Of a stretch of 64,000 bases of DNA, positions 42,773 through 55,022 are shown one piece after another. The stretch spans positions 1-64,000 of the forward strand of contig JAGVLE010000035.1 in NCBI GenBank assembly GCA_020049895.1. Reading direction: 5' to 3'. The notes under the pieces were generated by a model. The model ran no database searches and had not been told where the DNA came from. It saw only the letters and a list, made by a program, of their open reading frames with translations. Each line of letters starts with the position of its first letter. Position 1 is the stretch's first letter. The DNA comes from Alphaproteobacteria bacterium. Its GTDB lineage: Bacteria; Pseudomonadota; Alphaproteobacteria; UBA9655. The position numbers and the translations under genes were made by a program.

Positions 42773-42859
42773 GCCCCTGTGGCGGAACTGGCAGACGCGG
42801 CAGACTCAAAATCTGTTGTTCGAAAGGACGTGGGAGTTCGACCCTCCCCGGGGGCACCA
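42773..42859 (+). tRNA. tRNA-Leu(CAA)
   Basis: Cloverleaf with long variable arm, anticodon loop CTCAAAA, encoded CCA. Confidence 0.95.
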
Positions 42860-42863
42860 AGGG

Positions 42864-43007: not shown

Positions 43008-44273
43008 ATGAATCCTGCCGTTCGGATAGGAAAAGGACCACGGGAAACGCTTGTGAGGCTTTTCTGTTTTATCATCTTGCCCTTTGAGCTGTATTATCTC
43101 TTTTTGAATATGCAGTACAACACCTATCAAGCGGATTATAGGGCGCGCCAGCAGCAAGAGAGCCAACGCGTTAGGGCTAAAGTTTCTGAAGCAAAATCTC
43201 GTTTAAAACCCTTAGCCTCAGATGGGCCTCGAAGGCCTGCCCTCGAGTCGATCGAGGGACGAGCAAGTGAGGACAATAACAATCCCCTTACAGATGTTTC
43301 TAAACTCGAGTTTCCATCCACGAGTAGGCAACACTTAGCAGGAATCAACAAGGTTACGACTCTTAACTTCTCTCCCCTCTCTCCTAAAGAGGAAGATCCA
43401 ACTCTTCAGAAAGATCCTCTAGATTTTTTCTTGATCCCACCGATTTCTCGTTGGGATTATTTTCTCTCTCATAAAGCTGATTTTTGGCTGTTGGGGTACG
43501 CTGTATTGATAGGCAGTCTATTTTTTCTGCTCTTGCAGCATGTCCTCAAAAAACAAGCCCGCCTTGCCTATGGAACGCACATTGGCCAGTTAACGGCGGA
43601 GTGGGAGACACAACGTACTGCCTTAAAGGCCCAGTATTCTTTCCAAAGCCACCTTATACAACGTTTTAAGGAAGCGTCCCACGCTGTTCATAAGATACTC
43701 ACACGTCTCGGCAGTCCTGACTCTCTTTCATCCGATAATACCGAGACCCTTATTTACGGAGCGACCTCCTTGTCAAAAGGCGTATCGCAAGGCCTACCCA
43801 ATTACAGACGAGAACCTATATGTCTTTTAAATCTCTTGAACCAGATTAAAGATCAAGTGTCTCATGAGCTACATCAGCGCAATATCAGCTGGAATATTGA
43901 TTGTCCAAAAGAGCTCACCCTTCTAGGAGATGAGCTGTTTGTGAGACAAATCCTCTTGAGCGCATTTGCGTATCCTCTCTATTACATACCTAAAGGGGGA
44001 AAGGTGTCTATTACCGTCACCCAACAATATGGCTTTATCTACATTGAATCCCAAGATCATCGGTTTACCCTGACTCCCACCGTAAAGGCACACCTTACGT
44101 TACCCGAAGGCTTTATTGAAGAAACCGCACTCCGTCAGATATGTGCGCAAAATCAAATACACTATGAGTCCTTAAAAACATCTGAGGGAATTACCCACAC
44201 ACGGATATTCTTTCCTGAAGATTCCGATAAGGACAATCTTCTGTTTCAGGAGTCTAATGCTACAATCCATTAA
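43008..44273 (+). CDS. two-TM sensor histidine kinase-like protein with degenerate ATPase domain
   Basis: TM segments near N-terminus and mid-protein, coiled-coil linker, then LLGDELFVRQILLSAFAYPLYYIPKGGKVSITV resembling an HATPase N-box region without the canonical Asn. Confidence 0.6.
   Translation: MNPAVRIGKGPRETLVRLFCFIILPFELYYLFLNMQYNTYQADYRARQQQESQRVRAKVSEAKSRLKPLASDGPRRPALESIEGRASEDNNNPLTDVSKLEFPSTSRQHLAGINKVTTLNFSPLSPKEEDPTLQKDPLDFFLIPPISRWDYFLSHKADFWLLGYAVLIGSLFFLLLQHVLKKQARLAYGTHIGQLTAEWETQRTALKAQYSFQSHLIQRFKEASHAVHKILTRLGSPDSLSSDNTETLIYGATSLSKGVSQGLPNYRREPICLLNLLNQIKDQVSHELHQRNISWNIDCPKELTLLGDELFVRQILLSAFAYPLYYIPKGGKVSITVTQQYGFIYIESQDHRFTLTPTVKAHLTLPEGFIEETALRQICAQNQIHYESLKTSEGITHTRIFFPEDSDKDNLLFQESNATIH
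43216..43257. repeat. palindromic element copy A (diverged), inside the kinase-like gene
   Basis: CCTCAGATGGGCCTCGAAGGCCTGCCCTCGAGTCGATCGAGG; 33/42 match by eye to copy B. Confidence 0.65.
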
Positions 44274-45997: not shown

Positions 45998-46942
45998 TTA
46001 TAACTGCTTTATAACGCTACCAATTAAACTTATGATCTCATCGAACCCTGGCTGACCTTTGTAATAAAGATTTCGGCTGTTTTCGTAGGCCTTTTGATAG
46101 ACGGCTCTTATCGTAGGATCGCTCAAGAAAAAAGCCTCATTGTCTTCAATAATCGGATTATCTTCTTGACGAAAACGTCTGTTCTTATGCTCCCCATACT
46201 CTGGCGTTCCTATAAAAGACTGCACACGAGGATCCTGGAGGAGGCAATACACATCATAATAGTGGCGCATGAAGTTTTCAGAAAACATCTTTGTCTGCTG
46301 CTGCTTTCGGAATTTTGTGGAGATCGTTTGAAGCTTTTCAACAAACGTATACCCTGGATGGTAACAAGGAACTTTTTTAGCTTGATTATCGATAATAGGG
46401 ACTTTTTTTACTGCATATCCATAAGCCCAAGAGCTTATGTCTTTGAGAGTACTGGGTGTCACATCATCAAAACCAACTTCTAAAAGAATACCGGTTTTTA
46501 TACCCTCTAACGGCGCACTAAAGGATTTATAAAACAATCGAATGCCACCGCTTCTATATTTTTTATCGTCAAACAGCGTATCCCGTTGTTGCTCATAAAT
46601 TCCTTCAATTCTTATTTCCTGTGTAAGCCAATCATAAAATTCTTTTCGGCTCTGACATTGAGCAGGCTTATCCTGGTTGCGTCCTATGGGGACTTCCATT
46701 GAAGAGGGAGGATCAATGCGAATATCGATATCTTCCGAGAAGCGATGAATAATCCCATAGCCCTTGGATAAGGAAGTGCCCCCCTTAAGGTGAAAGGCCA
46801 TTCCTGCTTGTTGTAATCCAAAAAGGCAATGCATAATCCAATAGTCTTTCTCCACAAGAGCAGGATCAATTCCTTGATCCTGCCCAACAATACGGATGAG
46901 GGCGGGAAACTCTGGATGATTATGGAGGTAATCAAGTGCCAT
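45998..46942 (-). CDS. AbiEii/AbiGii-family nucleotidyltransferase toxin
   Basis: FHLKGGTSLSKGYGIIHRFSEDIDIRID nucleotidyltransferase motif; adjacent AbiEi-like gene. Confidence 0.9.
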   Translation of the reverse strand: MALDYLHNHPEFPALIRIVGQDQGIDPALVEKDYWIMHCLFGLQQAGMAFHLKGGTSLSKGYGIIHRFSEDIDIRIDPPSSMEVPIGRNQDKPAQCQSRKEFYDWLTQEIRIEGIYEQQRDTLFDDKKYRSGGIRLFYKSFSAPLEGIKTGILLEVGFDDVTPSTLKDISSWAYGYAVKKVPIIDNQAKKVPCYHPGYTFVEKLQTISTKFRKQQQTKMFSENFMRHYYDVYCLLQDPRVQSFIGTPEYGEHKNRRFRQEDNPIIEDNEAFFLSDPTIRAVYQKAYENSRNLYYKGQPGFDEIISLIGSVIKQL

Positions 46943-46946
46943 ACTT

Positions 46947-47528
46947 TTAAAAATCCTTTCCTAACACTTCTGAAAAGAATTTCTTTGCACGTACTCCTCC
47001 ATAGTGAGATACAGCTTGAGAAAGTACCTTGGCGTCCAGGGAAAGAGCCTTCTCTTTCACATTGTCCAAAACCTGCTGCCTATTCTCCGCAAGGGTCGTT
47101 ATGTTATTGACAAGATCCACAAGAAGAAATTCAGGACTGAGCTTCCGTGGAAAATGAGGCTTCATACGAAATTCAAACGTACGGTCCCCTAAGTGAAACC
47201 GGCCATGGCGTTTATGATTATACACCACTGTTTCATTATAAAGCTGCGTTGTTCCGACATTCAAAGCATTATAGGCATTGGGTGTTGTGATCAGAAAGCG
47301 ATCATCTTTTAGAAAAGAAGCTACCAGGGCATGATCATCTGCAGGGGTTTGCCCAAAAACAGTTTTCTTAGGATAATAATAAAGCCCCCCAGAGAGCTTC
47401 ACCAGGGTTCCTTTTTGCTGCAGCTGTTGCAAGTGACGATCAACGGCCTTTGACCACTTGCTAAGATCAGCGCGCCGATAAACGACCCCTGGATGAAGAT
47501 GTTTTTCTACGTAACCTAAGGACTGCAT
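46947..47528 (-). CDS. AbiEi-like / DUF6088 antitoxin
   Basis: wHTH-like N-terminus (VYRRADLSKWSKAVDRHLQQLQQKGTLVKLSGGLYYYPKKTVFGQTP), immediately upstream of the toxin gene. Confidence 0.82.
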   Translation of the reverse strand: MQSLGYVEKHLHPGVVYRRADLSKWSKAVDRHLQQLQQKGTLVKLSGGLYYYPKKTVFGQTPADDHALVASFLKDDRFLITTPNAYNALNVGTTQLYNETVVYNHKRHGRFHLGDRTFEFRMKPHFPRKLSPEFLLVDLVNNITTLAENRQQVLDNVKEKALSLDAKVLSQAVSHYGGVRAKKFFSEVLGKDF

Positions 47529-48246: not shown

Positions 48247-49410
48247 ATGGCAACATTTGAAGAAGAAATTTCAAAATTAAACTCGTTTTATTTCTTGAGA
48301 GAACATACGTATAAAAAAAATCAATTTGACGTCTCTACAGGACAATACGAATTAGCAGATAACATCGTATCTCTTGATAACGTCATGATAGTTTATCAGC
48401 TTAAAGAAAGGGATCCTACAGGTAAGACAACGCCAGAGAAATGGTTCGAAAATAAAATTACTAGCGGCTCTGCGAAATCTGCGAAAAAACAAATTAAGGA
48501 TACAATCCGATACCTGGATGATTATTCAGAAATCAAAATCACTAATGAACAAGGATTTGATGTTACTTTATCAAAATCATTAAACTCTAGAATACACAAA
48601 ATAATTCTCTATACAGGAATTGATGTATTGCCAAGTAACAGCAGGAATAGGAATTTTTACATCAGCCGTGACGTTGGTGTCATTCATATATTTCATTCAT
48701 CTGATTATAAGATGGTTGTTGGTACCCTAATAACAATTGCTGAACTTGAGGAATATTTAACCTTTCGAGAAGCATTAATTATTAAATTTCAAAAACTAAT
48801 GAAAGTCATCTCTGAAGAGGCTGTTCTTGGTCAATTTTTGTCAGGTTTCCATAACGAATCACCTTCGGAAAAAAACATTATATACGTAAGATCGCTAAAG
48901 AAAGATTATGAAGCTTGGGATGTTTTGAATCTTTTACAAAATTTCAAAGAAAAAACCGTCATGACACAAGAGAAAAATGACTACCATCATATTCTAAAAG
49001 AAATAGCGAAGCTAAAAAGAGATCAACTAAGGATATTTAAGGAAAGATATCTATCCTGTATACACGCATCATTAAAAGGAGAAGGTTTGCCACCACGCAC
49101 AATGGCTTTCGGCTGTGGTTTTGTTTTTGATACATGTAAACGAGAAGAAATTGATCTTGCATCAACATATATTCATTCCTTGGCTACACTTTATAAATAC
49201 AAAAATAAACTAGAAAAATGTGTGGGCGCTATCTTTATCGGAGATCAAGAAGGATACTTCAACATAATTTGGTGTTATATCGAGTCCCCGTTTACATATG
49301 ACCCCTATTTAGAAGAAAGGGTTTTAGAATCCAACCTCTTGCCTTCTCAACAGAAGCAGCAGGCCAAAAACTTATATGAATTTTATGATGCAATAATGAT
49401 AGAAGATTAA
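48247..49410 (+). CDS. hypothetical protein with candidate PD-(D/E)XK nuclease motif
   Basis: 387 aa; SLDNVMIVYQLKERD resembles the D...(E/Q)xK core; long charged C-terminal region; family not recognised. Confidence 0.55.
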   Translation: MATFEEEISKLNSFYFLREHTYKKNQFDVSTGQYELADNIVSLDNVMIVYQLKERDPTGKTTPEKWFENKITSGSAKSAKKQIKDTIRYLDDYSEIKITNEQGFDVTLSKSLNSRIHKIILYTGIDVLPSNSRNRNFYISRDVGVIHIFHSSDYKMVVGTLITIAELEEYLTFREALIIKFQKLMKVISEEAVLGQFLSGFHNESPSEKNIIYVRSLKKDYEAWDVLNLLQNFKEKTVMTQEKNDYHHILKEIAKLKRDQLRIFKERYLSCIHASLKGEGLPPRTMAFGCGFVFDTCKREEIDLASTYIHSLATLYKYKNKLEKCVGAIFIGDQEGYFNIIWCYIESPFTYDPYLEERVLESNLLPSQQKQQAKNLYEFYDAIMIED

Positions 49411-49451: not shown

Positions 49452-52400
49452 TCACATCCCCAACTCTGGCCCATGGTCCTTGGTGTGGACGTGTTCATGA
49501 TCGTGATCTTTTAAGAGGTGTTCGAGGTCTTGGGAAAGTGCCTTATCATGTCCTTTGATGGCCTCAAATAGGGGTTCATTTTTCTGAAGAGTGTGGAGGT
49601 AGTCTTTGAGGGACTCGCGTACTTCTTCTGCAAGGGAGGTTCCTGCATAGTCTTTGATATCTTTAAGCTTGGTCTGGATGTAGTCGGAAATAATGTCGAC
49701 GGAGCTCTCTTTACTGGATGAGTTCGAGGAAACGTCTGTCGATTGCGAAGAATACCCTGCTAGAGTTTCCTTTTGGGAATCAATCGTCTTCTCAGGAAAC
49801 TGATGATTTAGCCCGAGCGCGTCCTGATGGGAGGAGGTATTGTCTAACAATATTTGTTTCTCCAAGGTCATACTTTGATAAGGGATCTGGTCCTGAATGT
49901 TTCTCTGCCTTTCTAGATCACCCTCGATGGGACTCGAGGGCCTGCCCTCGACTTGATTGGGGTACAGGAGGTAAGGCTTCAAGTAGTCTTGAACTCCTTG
50001 CCGTCCTTGTTTTTTGAGAACGTCGTTAAAGTCATCTCCAGAAGTAGTAGGCTTAATGATCGTTACAAGTTTATCCTGGGCCTGGAAGGTATCGCATGCC
50101 TTCTCCAAAACGACATGAGTTTGTGAGTTTTCTTTATGGCCTGTCCTCGAATCCCATCGAGGGGCATCATTATCCCCGCATAAAACAACCTCCCTCTCAG
50201 GGCCTTGATAATTGCTGATATTATGAATCCCTAAGGAAGCCACGATCTTTCCTTTGAGTCCTGCTTCCTTCAAGGAAAGGGCTGTTTCAATACCTTCAGC
50301 AATAAAGACACGGGAATGTGAAGCATCATCTTGAACGCATACAAACGATCCTTTAGAGATCCCATATTGAATCTTATTGAGCTTTTCTCCTTCAGCCGTA
50401 AGGGCCCGCTCTCCTGTATCCGCCAGTTTGATGAGCTGGACAGAGCTTAATCGGCCTGTCTCATCCCGCCCAAAGGCTGCAAGACAAAGATGGTGGAGGC
50501 TCTTTCTTTCATCCTGATAGACAAAGATTGTTCCCTTCGGTAGATAACGTAGATCATTCCCTCGATGGGTTTCGATGGCTTGCCCTCGACTTGATTGGGG
50601 GGCAGAGGTAAGCTCCCCCTTAATGCCGCGTTCCTCTCTAAGATAAGTCTCTGCCACAGTTCCAGCAATGGAAGTAGATTTCATGTGAAGCTCAGAAACG
50701 GCATTTAATCTACTGGCACGTTCTTGAGCTGTCAGGATGCTTTCTTCAACTGAACCAAGTGGCCGATGGGAAACGGTAGGATGGGCCATATCCTTCTCCC
50801 CCAATGACCTCACATTTAAAACCTCTGCCAGGTAAGAAACCGATCCCTTAAAATCAAGACCTTTCTCTCGCTGAATGAGCTGAAAGAGATTACCTCCTTC
50901 TCCTGATTCAAAATCTTTCCATAATCCTGATTTTGGCCCTGAGAGCGTAATGGCCAATGATCCTTTATTTCCGAACCGTAGAATCGTTTTTGTCGATAGA
51001 TGCGTGTTAGCGATTCCTAGAAGGTCTTGAGTAATCTCCGCTATACGCCCATGAGCAGCTTCAAGAACCTGATCGACAGAGATATAAGGAGAGACCTGTA
51101 TCTTAGCTTGGAAATCAGGAACCGATTGGATTTGTCCTGCTTGATGGCCTACCTGACGTTGTAGTCCTGATCCCATGCCTCCTAAAACAGTAAAGGCAGC
51201 AGGATTAGATTTCAGAATTCTTGCATTCTCATTCCGTGCTTCTACGGCAAGGCCAGGGGAGTCCTGCCCTTTGATCTGAACAACTTTCCAAGCACGAGCA
51301 GTCTCTTTAGAAGCCTTCAGATAATCCTGGATTGGCTTATAGACATCGTCAGGACTCAAAGAGGCTGGGATTTCGCCCTTACTAAATTTATCAGCAAACG
51401 CAATATCAAATCTTATCCGGTTCATATCCGCACCTGGGGTTTCTTTAAAGGCTTCATTCACAATGCGGTAATCCTGTGGTGTTTTTAGGATTCTCTGCAG
51501 CTCTTGGGCTTTTTCTGCGCGTTGGACGATTTCAGGTTCATTCATGTACGCGTAAGCCTTCTCTCTGAGCTCTCCCGCAATGGCATGCTCTAAGAGCTTG
51601 TCTTCCTTCACATTCAGGAGAGGAAAGAACTCTTGGTATGCCTCAGGAGATTCCACAATCTTCAACGCAAGGGTGTCTCGTGAGATTTGCTGGGCTCTAA
51701 AAACTTCAAAATTCAATTCTGGTGTAGAAGTAACCTGAACAGACGCTTCTCCCTGTTTTTTGAGATGACCATACAACGCAGCGGCCTCATTGCGAGCCTT
51801 CACATAAGCTTTGACCTCGTCATAATGAGATTTCTGTTCTTGGGTAAGGCGTTCATAAAAAAGAGCCTGAAGTTGGGATTTGGTGTGCGCAGCTGCATGG
51901 GCTTTAACGGAAGCAAAATAAACATGTTCTCCTGTGTTAACGGTCTCTTCCCAATAGTCCTCTAGCTCTCCTGTTTCTGGATTCTTAGTCACCTTAAAGA
52001 ATTGGCTATACAGCCGAGGCGTTTCATGCATCACCGCAGCAAGAGAGTCCCGCTCTCGTTTCTGGGTTTGGTAGGTCTCATACAGTTCATGGGAAGAGGC
52101 CAATACCCCTGGATGGGTTGCGGAAATGGTCTTCCATAAGGTGCGTGTTTCTCTGACCAATTCCATATACCCCTGAACCTGAAGCGAAGCCCTATGCTCT
52201 AGATCAGATAGAATTCGATTGCGAAGTCCTATCTCAACTTCCAATATATCTTTACGAATCCCTGCTAATCGCACATAGGGGGCATGGTATTGCCAGTCTT
52301 GAAGGATCTCTCCAGCAACAACCTTCTTCTGATCCAGCAGAGTTTGATAGGAAGGATATGACGCATGTTTATAGAATGGAACATCTAGATCTAAACTGCC

Positions 52401-55022
52401 TTCGATTTCTTCTCGAAGAGTTGAGTATTCAAGGATGAGGTCTCGATACTGTTGCACCCTTTCAAATGCAGGTTTCTGGGCTTCACTAATATGATAATCA
52501 TGGGTCGTTTGAGAAAGCGCGGGCCGTCCAATGCGATCCACAAGGTCCTTAAAATCCACAAAATCCTCCCGATGGACATAGAGCTGTAAATCCTCTCGAT
52601 GGCGAGTCAGGCCAACAAGCAGAGTGGAAGGATCCATGAGCGGATCCATCATTACAAAGGTTTTATCAAATGTGGAACCCTCAGACTTATGAATCCCCAG
52701 AGCATAGCCATGGGTGATATGAGAATATTCCTGGAAGCTAAACTGAACTTTCCGTTCATCTTCAAGCGTTACGGTAAGCTCTTGTCCTTCTATTTTTTCA
52801 ATGATTCCAAAAGTGCCGTTCTTAACCCCAACGGACTTGTCCGAATTAAACCTATCTTTGATAAATTGGAGAGGGGAATCAGAAAGATTTTTCACACGGA
52901 TTCCATAATGATCATTTTGGGTAAATCGAATCCGATCTCCCACAGCATACTCTTCCCCTCCCAATTTAACGCCTTCTTGGAGATATCCATGGGATTTAAA
53001 CTCTTCTCGAATCGCATGATTGAGGGCATAAACGTCCGCATTCCGATACGCTAAGGCCATACGGCTTTGTTGCGGGTTTTGGAGATAATCGTCTATATAC
53101 GCTTGCGTCAAAGCTTTCAGAGTTTGTGTTTCTGATTCTTGCCAGTGGATATGGCCTTTCTCATGATAAGGAATCAAACCGTCCACAACGTGATGGTCAT
53201 TCAGCAATTTTGAACACTCTCGTTGCCAATTTATACACTGACGCACCACTTCCATGGTTTCCACATACCCATACTTTTCGGCAAAGAGACGGCCTGTATC
53301 CCCTGGGGATCGGGATTTAATCTGGGCAGGATCTTGAACGATTAGGACCTTGGCCCCTTTCAATGTGGCCTCTTTCAGGAAAGGCTCCCACAAATGATTC
53401 CCCACCATATTGGCCTCATCTACAATAATCACATCTTTTGATGTGAGGCGCTGAGGGGCTAGCTCATCCGCAATCTTCGATGCATATTTGTAAGCCTTTC
53501 CCCAAAGCCTTCCTTCGTTCAGTCCATCCAAAGCCTTTTGATGTTTCTCCCAAGCGTACTTAAAACTATCGAGGGTTTTACAAGGGATGCCGATCTCTTT
53601 TTCCATAATCTCAACGGCTTTGCCTTGGAAAGAGGTTCCTCTGACATGATACCCAGAGTCTTGATAAGCGCCGGCGACAGCTTTTAGGAGAGTGGTTTTT
53701 CCTGTTCCTGCCTTTCCGTTGAGAATGCAGATGTCTGGGCCAGAACATAGATGGGTAATGGCATCCCGTTGTTCAGTAGAGAGTTCAAAACCGATGACTG
53801 TTTCTCTGGATTTAATGGTTTTCTCAATAGAGCCCATGTTAACAGATTTTGTCTGGCGTGTATGAAGCTCGTCTCCCCATTTGATGATCTGGTCTTCTTG
53901 AGTCTTATAAACAGCAGACGTAAAGACAGGATCTCGGTTAAGATCCTCTCCTACACGGGCAATAATCTCCTCATTGCTTAAAAGCTGGGCTGTAAATTGC
54001 TCTACAGACTTCAGAAGACAGCTTGATCTCCCCCCTTCAAACATGACGTCTCGGTTATCATTGGCTTGCTTTAAGATCAACTCTGGCGGAAGCTCTAATC
54101 CATCGACTTTGGCTTTGATAATGGTAAAGAGCTTCTCATCTCCGCCTACGCGACGGAGCACCTCTTCTTCAATATGACGACGGGTAAAGATCGTACGTTT
54201 AAGAGTGAGGTCTTGAATTAAGACAGCAGGGTTATGACAGAGGATCTCTATGTTCTTTTGCCGAATGGCGTCATTATCGGCCACAATCCGAGAATACTCT
54301 CCCCGCTCAGCAAGTCTCTGAGCGTACCAGCCTTCGTGGTGTGTGGGCAGCAGGGTAAGTCCTTGATCGGCATAGGACCGACTATCAATACGGACCTCAT
54401 GGCCGCCTAAAGCCAGATGTTTATTCACCACGTCTTCCCAGTGCTTCCGGGTAATAAAGAGTTCTGACTTTGAAACAATATCTCGATCTTTACGTAAGGA
54501 GAATTCCCCCTCAACCAAGGGACGGCGAGTAATGAGTCCATGGAAGTGAGGATTGCCCTCGTCCCAATGGATGGCATACTCAACAACAAGGCCTCTGGAA
54601 ACAAATCGCTCTTTGAGGAACTCTTCCACGCAAGATTCAGCCTCAGTGGGAGTGAACTCAAGGGGAATAGCGCCCATAATGGTTTGCGCTGTTTGGGCAG
54701 AGTTTAGAAATTTCTCCTTAGCAGATAGGCTACGTTGATGGTGCTCAGGATCATCGGGATCTACTCGAAACCGCATCTCAGCACAGTGATCTTCAAATTT
54801 TTCAACCGCATTCCACAAGGCAGCTGGATTACTCATCCATTCAGGGGCTCCTTCCGGAAGCAGCACACGACTGACGAGAACGTTTTGACGGTTTTCATAA
54901 GAAAAAGTTCTCCCCGTACGCTCATCTTTTTGATTTCCGCGCCCTATATACGCGCTAAAACCAACAGATGAGCGGCCCTCACTGCGGGAAATAAAGCCAA
55001 GATTTAGCGAATAAATCGCCAT
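49452..55022 (-). CDS. traA: TraA-type conjugative relaxase fused to RecD-like helicase and C-terminal primase/Toprim region
   Basis: 1856 aa; MobA/MobL N-terminus with HUH motif HWDEGNPHFHGLITRR; Walker A GKAGTGKTTLLKAVAG; DFESGEGGNLFQLI and FIAEGIETALSLKEAGL...CGDNDAP Toprim-like motifs. Confidence 0.9.
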   Translation of the reverse strand: MAIYSLNLGFISRSEGRSSVGFSAYIGRGNQKDERTGRTFSYENRQNVLVSRVLLPEGAPEWMSNPAALWNAVEKFEDHCAEMRFRVDPDDPEHHQRSLSAKEKFLNSAQTAQTIMGAIPLEFTPTEAESCVEEFLKERFVSRGLVVEYAIHWDEGNPHFHGLITRRPLVEGEFSLRKDRDIVSKSELFITRKHWEDVVNKHLALGGHEVRIDSRSYADQGLTLLPTHHEGWYAQRLAERGEYSRIVADNDAIRQKNIEILCHNPAVLIQDLTLKRTIFTRRHIEEEVLRRVGGDEKLFTIIKAKVDGLELPPELILKQANDNRDVMFEGGRSSCLLKSVEQFTAQLLSNEEIIARVGEDLNRDPVFTSAVYKTQEDQIIKWGDELHTRQTKSVNMGSIEKTIKSRETVIGFELSTEQRDAITHLCSGPDICILNGKAGTGKTTLLKAVAGAYQDSGYHVRGTSFQGKAVEIMEKEIGIPCKTLDSFKYAWEKHQKALDGLNEGRLWGKAYKYASKIADELAPQRLTSKDVIIVDEANMVGNHLWEPFLKEATLKGAKVLIVQDPAQIKSRSPGDTGRLFAEKYGYVETMEVVRQCINWQRECSKLLNDHHVVDGLIPYHEKGHIHWQESETQTLKALTQAYIDDYLQNPQQSRMALAYRNADVYALNHAIREEFKSHGYLQEGVKLGGEEYAVGDRIRFTQNDHYGIRVKNLSDSPLQFIKDRFNSDKSVGVKNGTFGIIEKIEGQELTVTLEDERKVQFSFQEYSHITHGYALGIHKSEGSTFDKTFVMMDPLMDPSTLLVGLTRHREDLQLYVHREDFVDFKDLVDRIGRPALSQTTHDYHISEAQKPAFERVQQYRDLILEYSTLREEIEGSLDLDVPFYKHASYPSYQTLLDQKKVVAGEILQDWQYHAPYVRLAGIRKDILEVEIGLRNRILSDLEHRASLQVQGYMELVRETRTLWKTISATHPGVLASSHELYETYQTQKRERDSLAAVMHETPRLYSQFFKVTKNPETGELEDYWEETVNTGEHVYFASVKAHAAAHTKSQLQALFYERLTQEQKSHYDEVKAYVKARNEAAALYGHLKKQGEASVQVTSTPELNFEVFRAQQISRDTLALKIVESPEAYQEFFPLLNVKEDKLLEHAIAGELREKAYAYMNEPEIVQRAEKAQELQRILKTPQDYRIVNEAFKETPGADMNRIRFDIAFADKFSKGEIPASLSPDDVYKPIQDYLKASKETARAWKVVQIKGQDSPGLAVEARNENARILKSNPAAFTVLGGMGSGLQRQVGHQAGQIQSVPDFQAKIQVSPYISVDQVLEAAHGRIAEITQDLLGIANTHLSTKTILRFGNKGSLAITLSGPKSGLWKDFESGEGGNLFQLIQREKGLDFKGSVSYLAEVLNVRSLGEKDMAHPTVSHRPLGSVEESILTAQERASRLNAVSELHMKSTSIAGTVAETYLREERGIKGELTSAPQSSRGQAIETHRGNDLRYLPKGTIFVYQDERKSLHHLCLAAFGRDETGRLSSVQLIKLADTGERALTAEGEKLNKIQYGISKGSFVCVQDDASHSRVFIAEGIETALSLKEAGLKGKIVASLGIHNISNYQGPEREVVLCGDNDAPRWDSRTGHKENSQTHVVLEKACDTFQAQDKLVTIIKPTTSGDDFNDVLKKQGRQGVQDYLKPYLLYPNQVEGRPSSPIEGDLERQRNIQDQIPYQSMTLEKQILLDNTSSHQDALGLNHQFPEKTIDSQKETLAGYSSQSTDVSSNSSSKESSVDIISDYIQTKLKDIKDYAGTSLAEEVRESLKDYLHTLQKNEPLFEAIKGHDKALSQDLEHLLKDHDHEHVHTKDHGPELGM
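49921..49962. repeat. palindromic element copy B, inside traA
   Basis: CCCTCGATGGGACTCGAGGGCCTGCCCTCGACTTGATTGGGG; contains perfect inverted repeats CCCTCGA-TGGGAC-TCGAGGG and TCGAGGGC-CT-GCCCTCGA. Confidence 0.8.
50144..50163. repeat. palindromic element half-copy D (inverted), inside the traA Toprim region
   Basis: TCCTCGAATCCCATCGAGGG is the reverse complement of the first 20 nt of copy B with 2 mismatches. Confidence 0.65.
50559..50600. repeat. palindromic element copy C, inside traA
   Basis: CCCTCGATGGGTTTCGATGGCTTGCCCTCGACTTGATTGGGG; 38/42 match by eye to copy B. Confidence 0.8.

Follow-up and report, generated by a model that had tools for sequence, protein, structure and literature searches.

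How can one short DNA unit lie more than once inside a single long gene, be translated in different frames and leave that gene intact? The route by which elements resembling the Rickettsia palindromic elements (RPEs) enter genes has, to our knowledge, not been settled since they were first described in 2000. The question is raised here by TraA (49452-55022, minus strand), which lies in the window, that is, the whole 64,000-nt stretch of alphaproteobacterial DNA that was analyzed. TraA is an uninterrupted ORF of 1856 aa with a MobA_MobL relaxase, an AAA_30 helicase and a Toprim_3 primase-like domain.

The preliminary description reported two copies in TraA, B (49921-49962) and C (50559-50600), which matched by eye at 38 of 42 positions. 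The same count was obtained by computation; among the other 42-mers of the window, on both strands, the match to B reached at most 24-26, except for copies A (33) and C (38). Both reported copies were genuine, but a third copy in TraA (D) and a fourth in another ORF (A) had been missed. The B insert (49920-49967, minus strand) adds 48 bp in frame and encodes TraA residues 1686-1701 (LYPNQVEGRPSSPIEG). The C insert (50556-50603, minus strand) likewise adds 48 bp in frame (APQSSRGQAIETHRGN), between ELTS and DLRYLPKG. Copy D (50139-50162, plus strand) is a 24-bp half element (GCCTGTCCTCGAATCCCATCGAGG) that is antisense to TraA, opposite in orientation to B and C, and adds PRWDSRTG (8 aa) immediately after the Toprim motif GDNDA. 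Copy A (43213-43260, minus strand) is a full element lying antisense within an upstream 421-aa histidine-kinase-like membrane ORF (43008-44273, plus strand), a label taken from the alignment pattern only; a Pfam search with this ORF gave no match. All four copies fall within 7.5 kb, and three of them within 0.7 kb.

The unit had been described as a palindromic element of 42 bp. It is indeed a stem-loop-forming unit, but it consists of two adjacent hairpins rather than a single palindrome, and the full inserts in TraA are 48 bp long. The two hairpins, CCCTCGA-N5-TCGAGGG and CCCTCGA-N6-TCGAGGG, are joined by CAGG. Their 7-bp stems have G/C first and no AT pairs, there is no CCA-like tail, and the loops are 5 nt in hairpin 1 and 6 nt or more in hairpin 2. 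The end tetranucleotide is CGTC in A and TGTC in D, in the full elements of the related genomes G003, G007 and G008, and in the half element of G011 and G014; this tag is eroded in B and C. Single copies folded moderately better than shuffled sequences (z -0.5 to -2.7), with A and B better than most shuffles and C weakly so. A structured RNA was considered and rejected, as Rfam gave no family except tRNA, and so was a terminator, as no terminator-like site was found.

The nature of the TraA copies was assessed with about 30 homologues from 17 genomes of the order; the named relatives are uncultured 'Alphaproteobacteria bacterium' MAGs. In the alignment, the three peptides (16, 16 and 8 aa) were absent from these homologues. 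The relatives read CTC^GATCCT without interruption at the site of B (protein KPYLDPEKQ) and GDND(A/D)HK at the site of D. At the site of C, an ELSS/DLRY-type sequence was contiguous in eight relatives, with TCT GAT CTG unbroken, which bears out the earlier proposal that C interrupts an otherwise contiguous RGIKGELTSA/NDLRYLPKG stretch. The insertions B, C and D measure 48, 48 and 24 bp, and all three are clean, adding 16, 16 and 8 aa to the protein; for B and C this agrees with the earlier proposal. Homologues carrying the same peptides would have spoken against this view, and none of those examined has them; the same alignments reject the idea that the inserts are conserved domain sequence. 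For copy A, a clean insertion was not supported: because homologues of its ORF have a longer segment at that place, with about 70 more residues where A sits, its insertion cannot be called clean. The insert region of TraA was modelled as a DnaG-like primase core with bacterial DnaG as the best Foldseek matches, at a mean pLDDT of only 59, and the inserts coincided with low-confidence loops of this otherwise DnaG-like model.

Translation confirmed that the same unit is decoded in two frames without breaking the 1856-codon ORF, B and C being read as PNQVEGRPSSPIEG and PQSSRGQAIETHRG. When the consensus was translated in six frames, one frame had a stop (TGA) and was unused, and the other five were all used. 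Sense frame 1 is used by C, sense frame 2 by B, and sense frame 3 by G007, G008 and the G011/G014 half element; one antisense frame is used by D and another by A and G003. One DNA unit therefore supplies five different peptides to related proteins. Insertion without regard to frame, followed by selective loss of copies that interrupt genes, would lead to such use, and an element with five stop-free frames out of six survives in genes more easily.

Full elements were also found in congeners, in a TraA-type relaxase (G003), in TraC (G007) and in the N-terminal region of an unassigned protein (G008). The G003 relaxase carries a perfect 51-bp insertion (17 aa) that is absent from 19 homologues. 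TraA of G011 and that of G014 each carry a half element, at a TraA position different from that in the host; in G011, one TraA has the half element and two paralogues of the same genome are without it. The related elements in congeners were mostly in conjugation genes, including TraA of other clades, and the looser relatives in G015 and G016 were intergenic. The number of copies per genome was 1-4, which is low for a mobile repeat. Outside this genus, a class-wide scan of 387 genomes gave no match exceeding 40 bits, and a scan of IMG/VR for the element gave no match.

The preliminary description implied a genome-wide family. The genome search did return four copies, but all of them lie in one island of about 25 kb and the chromosome outside it has none, so that this implication did not hold for the host. 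Absence of the consensus from the rest of the genome had been named beforehand as a refutation; it applies to the chromosome, though not to the island or to related islands. With covariance model R1, A-D were the only matches at E<=1 in the 1.18-Mb host genome, a draft in 35 contigs, and R2 agreed for the full copies; this census rests on the sensitivity of the searches, which may miss strongly decayed copies. The island is bounded by att repeats. attL (42802-42860, plus strand) is the 59-bp 3' part of tRNA-Leu(caa), and a perfect copy of this 59-bp end (L098) lies outside the window at C30:68187-68245, beside an integrase ORF of the tyrosine-recombinase type (C30:66840-68087). The integrative island so defined is 25.4 kb long and holds TraA and all four copies. 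It makes up 2.2% of the genome, and four independent insertions would all land in it with a probability of about 2e-7, although local copying could account for part of this. No T4SS genes were recognized among the island ORFs looked at. Beside TraA, the island also encodes an AbiEii-type toxin, next to which lies a DUF6088 ORF (46001-47528); the two are likely a type IV toxin-antitoxin pair. There is also a 387-aa ORF without a Pfam match (48247-49410) between this pair and TraA.

We compared the junctions with the empty sites of the relatives. When the element is read with its TGTC end first, a native GATC follows flush after hairpin 2 at B (49916-49919), C (50552-50555) and G003, for which empty sites are known. 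Close relatives also have GATC at the D point, and insert-free relatives have GATG at the G011/G014 half-element site; GATC is absent at A and G007. A flush GATC is found at 0.7% of TraA positions, which gives chance values of about 3e-7 for three of three and, with B and C taken as one copied event, about 5e-5 for two of two. Both figures overstate the evidence, as the calculation followed the discovery of the pattern. No target duplication was visible at G003 or B, and the C junction is ambiguous by two bases. GATC may be a preferred insertion site of the element. The B (49916-49976) and C (50552-50612) sites share TTACCTC and GATCTA flanks and are closer to each other here than the same sites are in relatives. 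Since these flanks are shared, B and C may represent one event, and the pattern suggests gene conversion between the two sites.

Given these properties, how does the element stand to known palindromic families? RPEs (Ogata et al. 2000/2002) are summarized in PMC2229807 and PMC10969869. As outlined there, the likeness lies in short palindromic DNA in frame in protein genes, at several genes and positions, with tolerated peptides and no known transposase. Stem-loop folding and in-frame insertion are common to both, but the element here is 24 or 48-51 bp long and RPE-1, by the account in PMC2229807, 105-146 bp. It also occurs outside Rickettsia, with four copies in one island instead of many across genes and spacers, and it uses five frames and has a candidate GATC target. 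The Wolbachia palindromic elements (Ogata et al. 2005, cited in PMC2229807) are likewise protein-coding and from an alphaproteobacterium, a likeness drawn from their description. In the REP/RAYT and IS200/IS605 (Y1/HUH) systems, hairpins are accompanied by an end tetranucleotide, and a duplication-free insertion beside a tetranucleotide would fit them (PMC6006769, PMC3733652). Classical REPs, however, have a GTAG tag, and a cognate Y1 gene flanked by the repeats was found neither in the host nor, for the full element, in relatives; around the relatives' Y1 genes looked at, there were no full-length copies and only a distant single hairpin.

The CGTC-tagged palindromic repeats, to which RPE-4 and RPE-6 belong, are described in PMC3733652 as having a terminal CGTC (or TGTC, CCTC), a stem of 8-9 bp with AT almost always in positions 1-2, a loop of 4-5 nt and an unpaired CCA-like tail. 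The element might be a drifted member of this superfamily, a matter of naming rather than mechanism that overlaps with our preferred explanation. The CGTC end of A, the TGTC end of G003, G007, G008 and the half elements, and the 5-nt loop of hairpin 1 speak for membership. So do the similar-sized stem-loops in single and double units, and the mainly alphaproteobacterial, sometimes intragenic occurrence without a dedicated or linked transposase that the same source describes for CGTC repeats. Against it are the 7-bp stems without AT pairs, the absence of a CCA tail, the 6-nt loop of hairpin 2 and the loss of the tag in B and C; moreover, the element is not abundant or intergenic in the host. 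On balance, we regard membership as a serious possibility that falls somewhat short of even odds. The RPE-like behavior proposed earlier, possibly of a distinct family, was supported by the several frames and the clean insertions, but length, stem and tail were unlike those of the RPE-1 and CGTC families. The element is an RPE-like, CGTC/TGTC-REP-related coding palindrome; compared by the published descriptions, it behaves as these families do, but we do not assign it to the RPEs or to the described CGTC repeats. No such elements were reported for the lineage of the host in the literature surveyed.

We favor, with a probability of roughly 0.7, the reading that the unit is a non-autonomous REP/RPE-like palindromic element, inserted beside GATC and kept where it is in frame. 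The element would be a TGTC/CGTC-ended double hairpin of 42-48 bp, with a 24-bp single-hairpin form as well. It would insert without evident target duplication, apparently beside GATC and in a fixed orientation with hairpin 2 at GATC. In-frame insertions would survive as extra, presumably neutral peptides when they fall in loops or linkers that tolerate them, in TraA as well as in other conjugation proteins, GATC being the putative chosen target. The element probably arrived with the integrative island and stayed confined there. Its likeness to IS200/IS605 and REP systems (PMC6006769) leads us to infer single-stranded mobilization by an HUH/Y1-type or relaxase-like enzyme. No Y1 transposase (PF01797) was found in the host genome, nor in G008 or G014; since the host genome is without a Y1 gene, the mobilizing enzyme may belong to an organism that carried the island earlier, or may be of another kind. 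The missing Y1 gene, the low copy number and the sites without GATC speak against the preferred reading. A bolder version, which we consider improbable, is that coding palindromes travel with conjugative islands and insert single-stranded beside GATC, moved by the HUH enzyme of conjugation itself. If the enzyme were the relaxase or a Y1 protein, the conjugation genes would be both the vehicle and the main target, and HUH mobilization by the conjugative machinery would give RPE-type elements a mechanism. In this case the insert-free state can be read from close paralogues, and both a target open to testing (GATC) and a vehicle (integrative/conjugative islands) are suggested.

For B and C, short-homology gene conversion is the main competing explanation. 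These two may indeed be copies of each other made in this way within the preferred reading, but the rival goes further and lets gene conversion or template switching alone copy an element, introduced a single time with the island, to nearby sites matching at a few bases, with neither a transposase nor a target enzyme. The close spacing of the four copies and the host genome without a Y1 transposase agree with this. However, D and A are oppositely oriented and are without such shared flanks, and clean single insertions occur in other genomes and genes without a nearby donor, that of G003 with the same GATC junction. As the sole process, gene conversion therefore seems to us rather unlikely. Selection for the peptides, by which the inserts would regulate the primase or relaxase of TraA and be kept for that, could draw on their repeated occurrence in conjugation genes and on the position of D against the Toprim metal-binding motif. 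The different frames give unrelated peptides, though, nearly all homologues and paralogues are without inserts, and the inserts lie in low-confidence loops, so that we give this explanation little credence. Short GC-rich hairpins are common and the genome is a draft, but 38 of 42 identities against a chance maximum of 24-26, together with clean insertions in independent relatives, rule out chance similarity and leave an assembly artefact with a negligible probability.

Some further matches were recorded. Weaker element-like matches lie in two more relaxase-like ORFs (L244, G008:C13:43010-43066; L246, G003:C20:4035-4082). The TraC paralogues of G006 (L139, L143 and L144) are distinguished at a single point by in-frame tandem units (CCATTTAATGGG-like); these length variants look like tandem direct repeats and were set aside as unrelated to the element. 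TraC of G015 (L126) has a six-residue insertion, SPSRGQ, after SYSEPSS (TCG CCT TCT CGA GGA CAG), which to judge from its sequence is perhaps an eroded half element. Weaker GC-rich double-hairpin relatives such as CCCCGGATCAAGTCCGGGGCAGGCTCT were matched by R2 in about 20 alphaproteobacterial genera (L210-L222), and these have the loop and the GGCAGGCTCT linker in common with the element.
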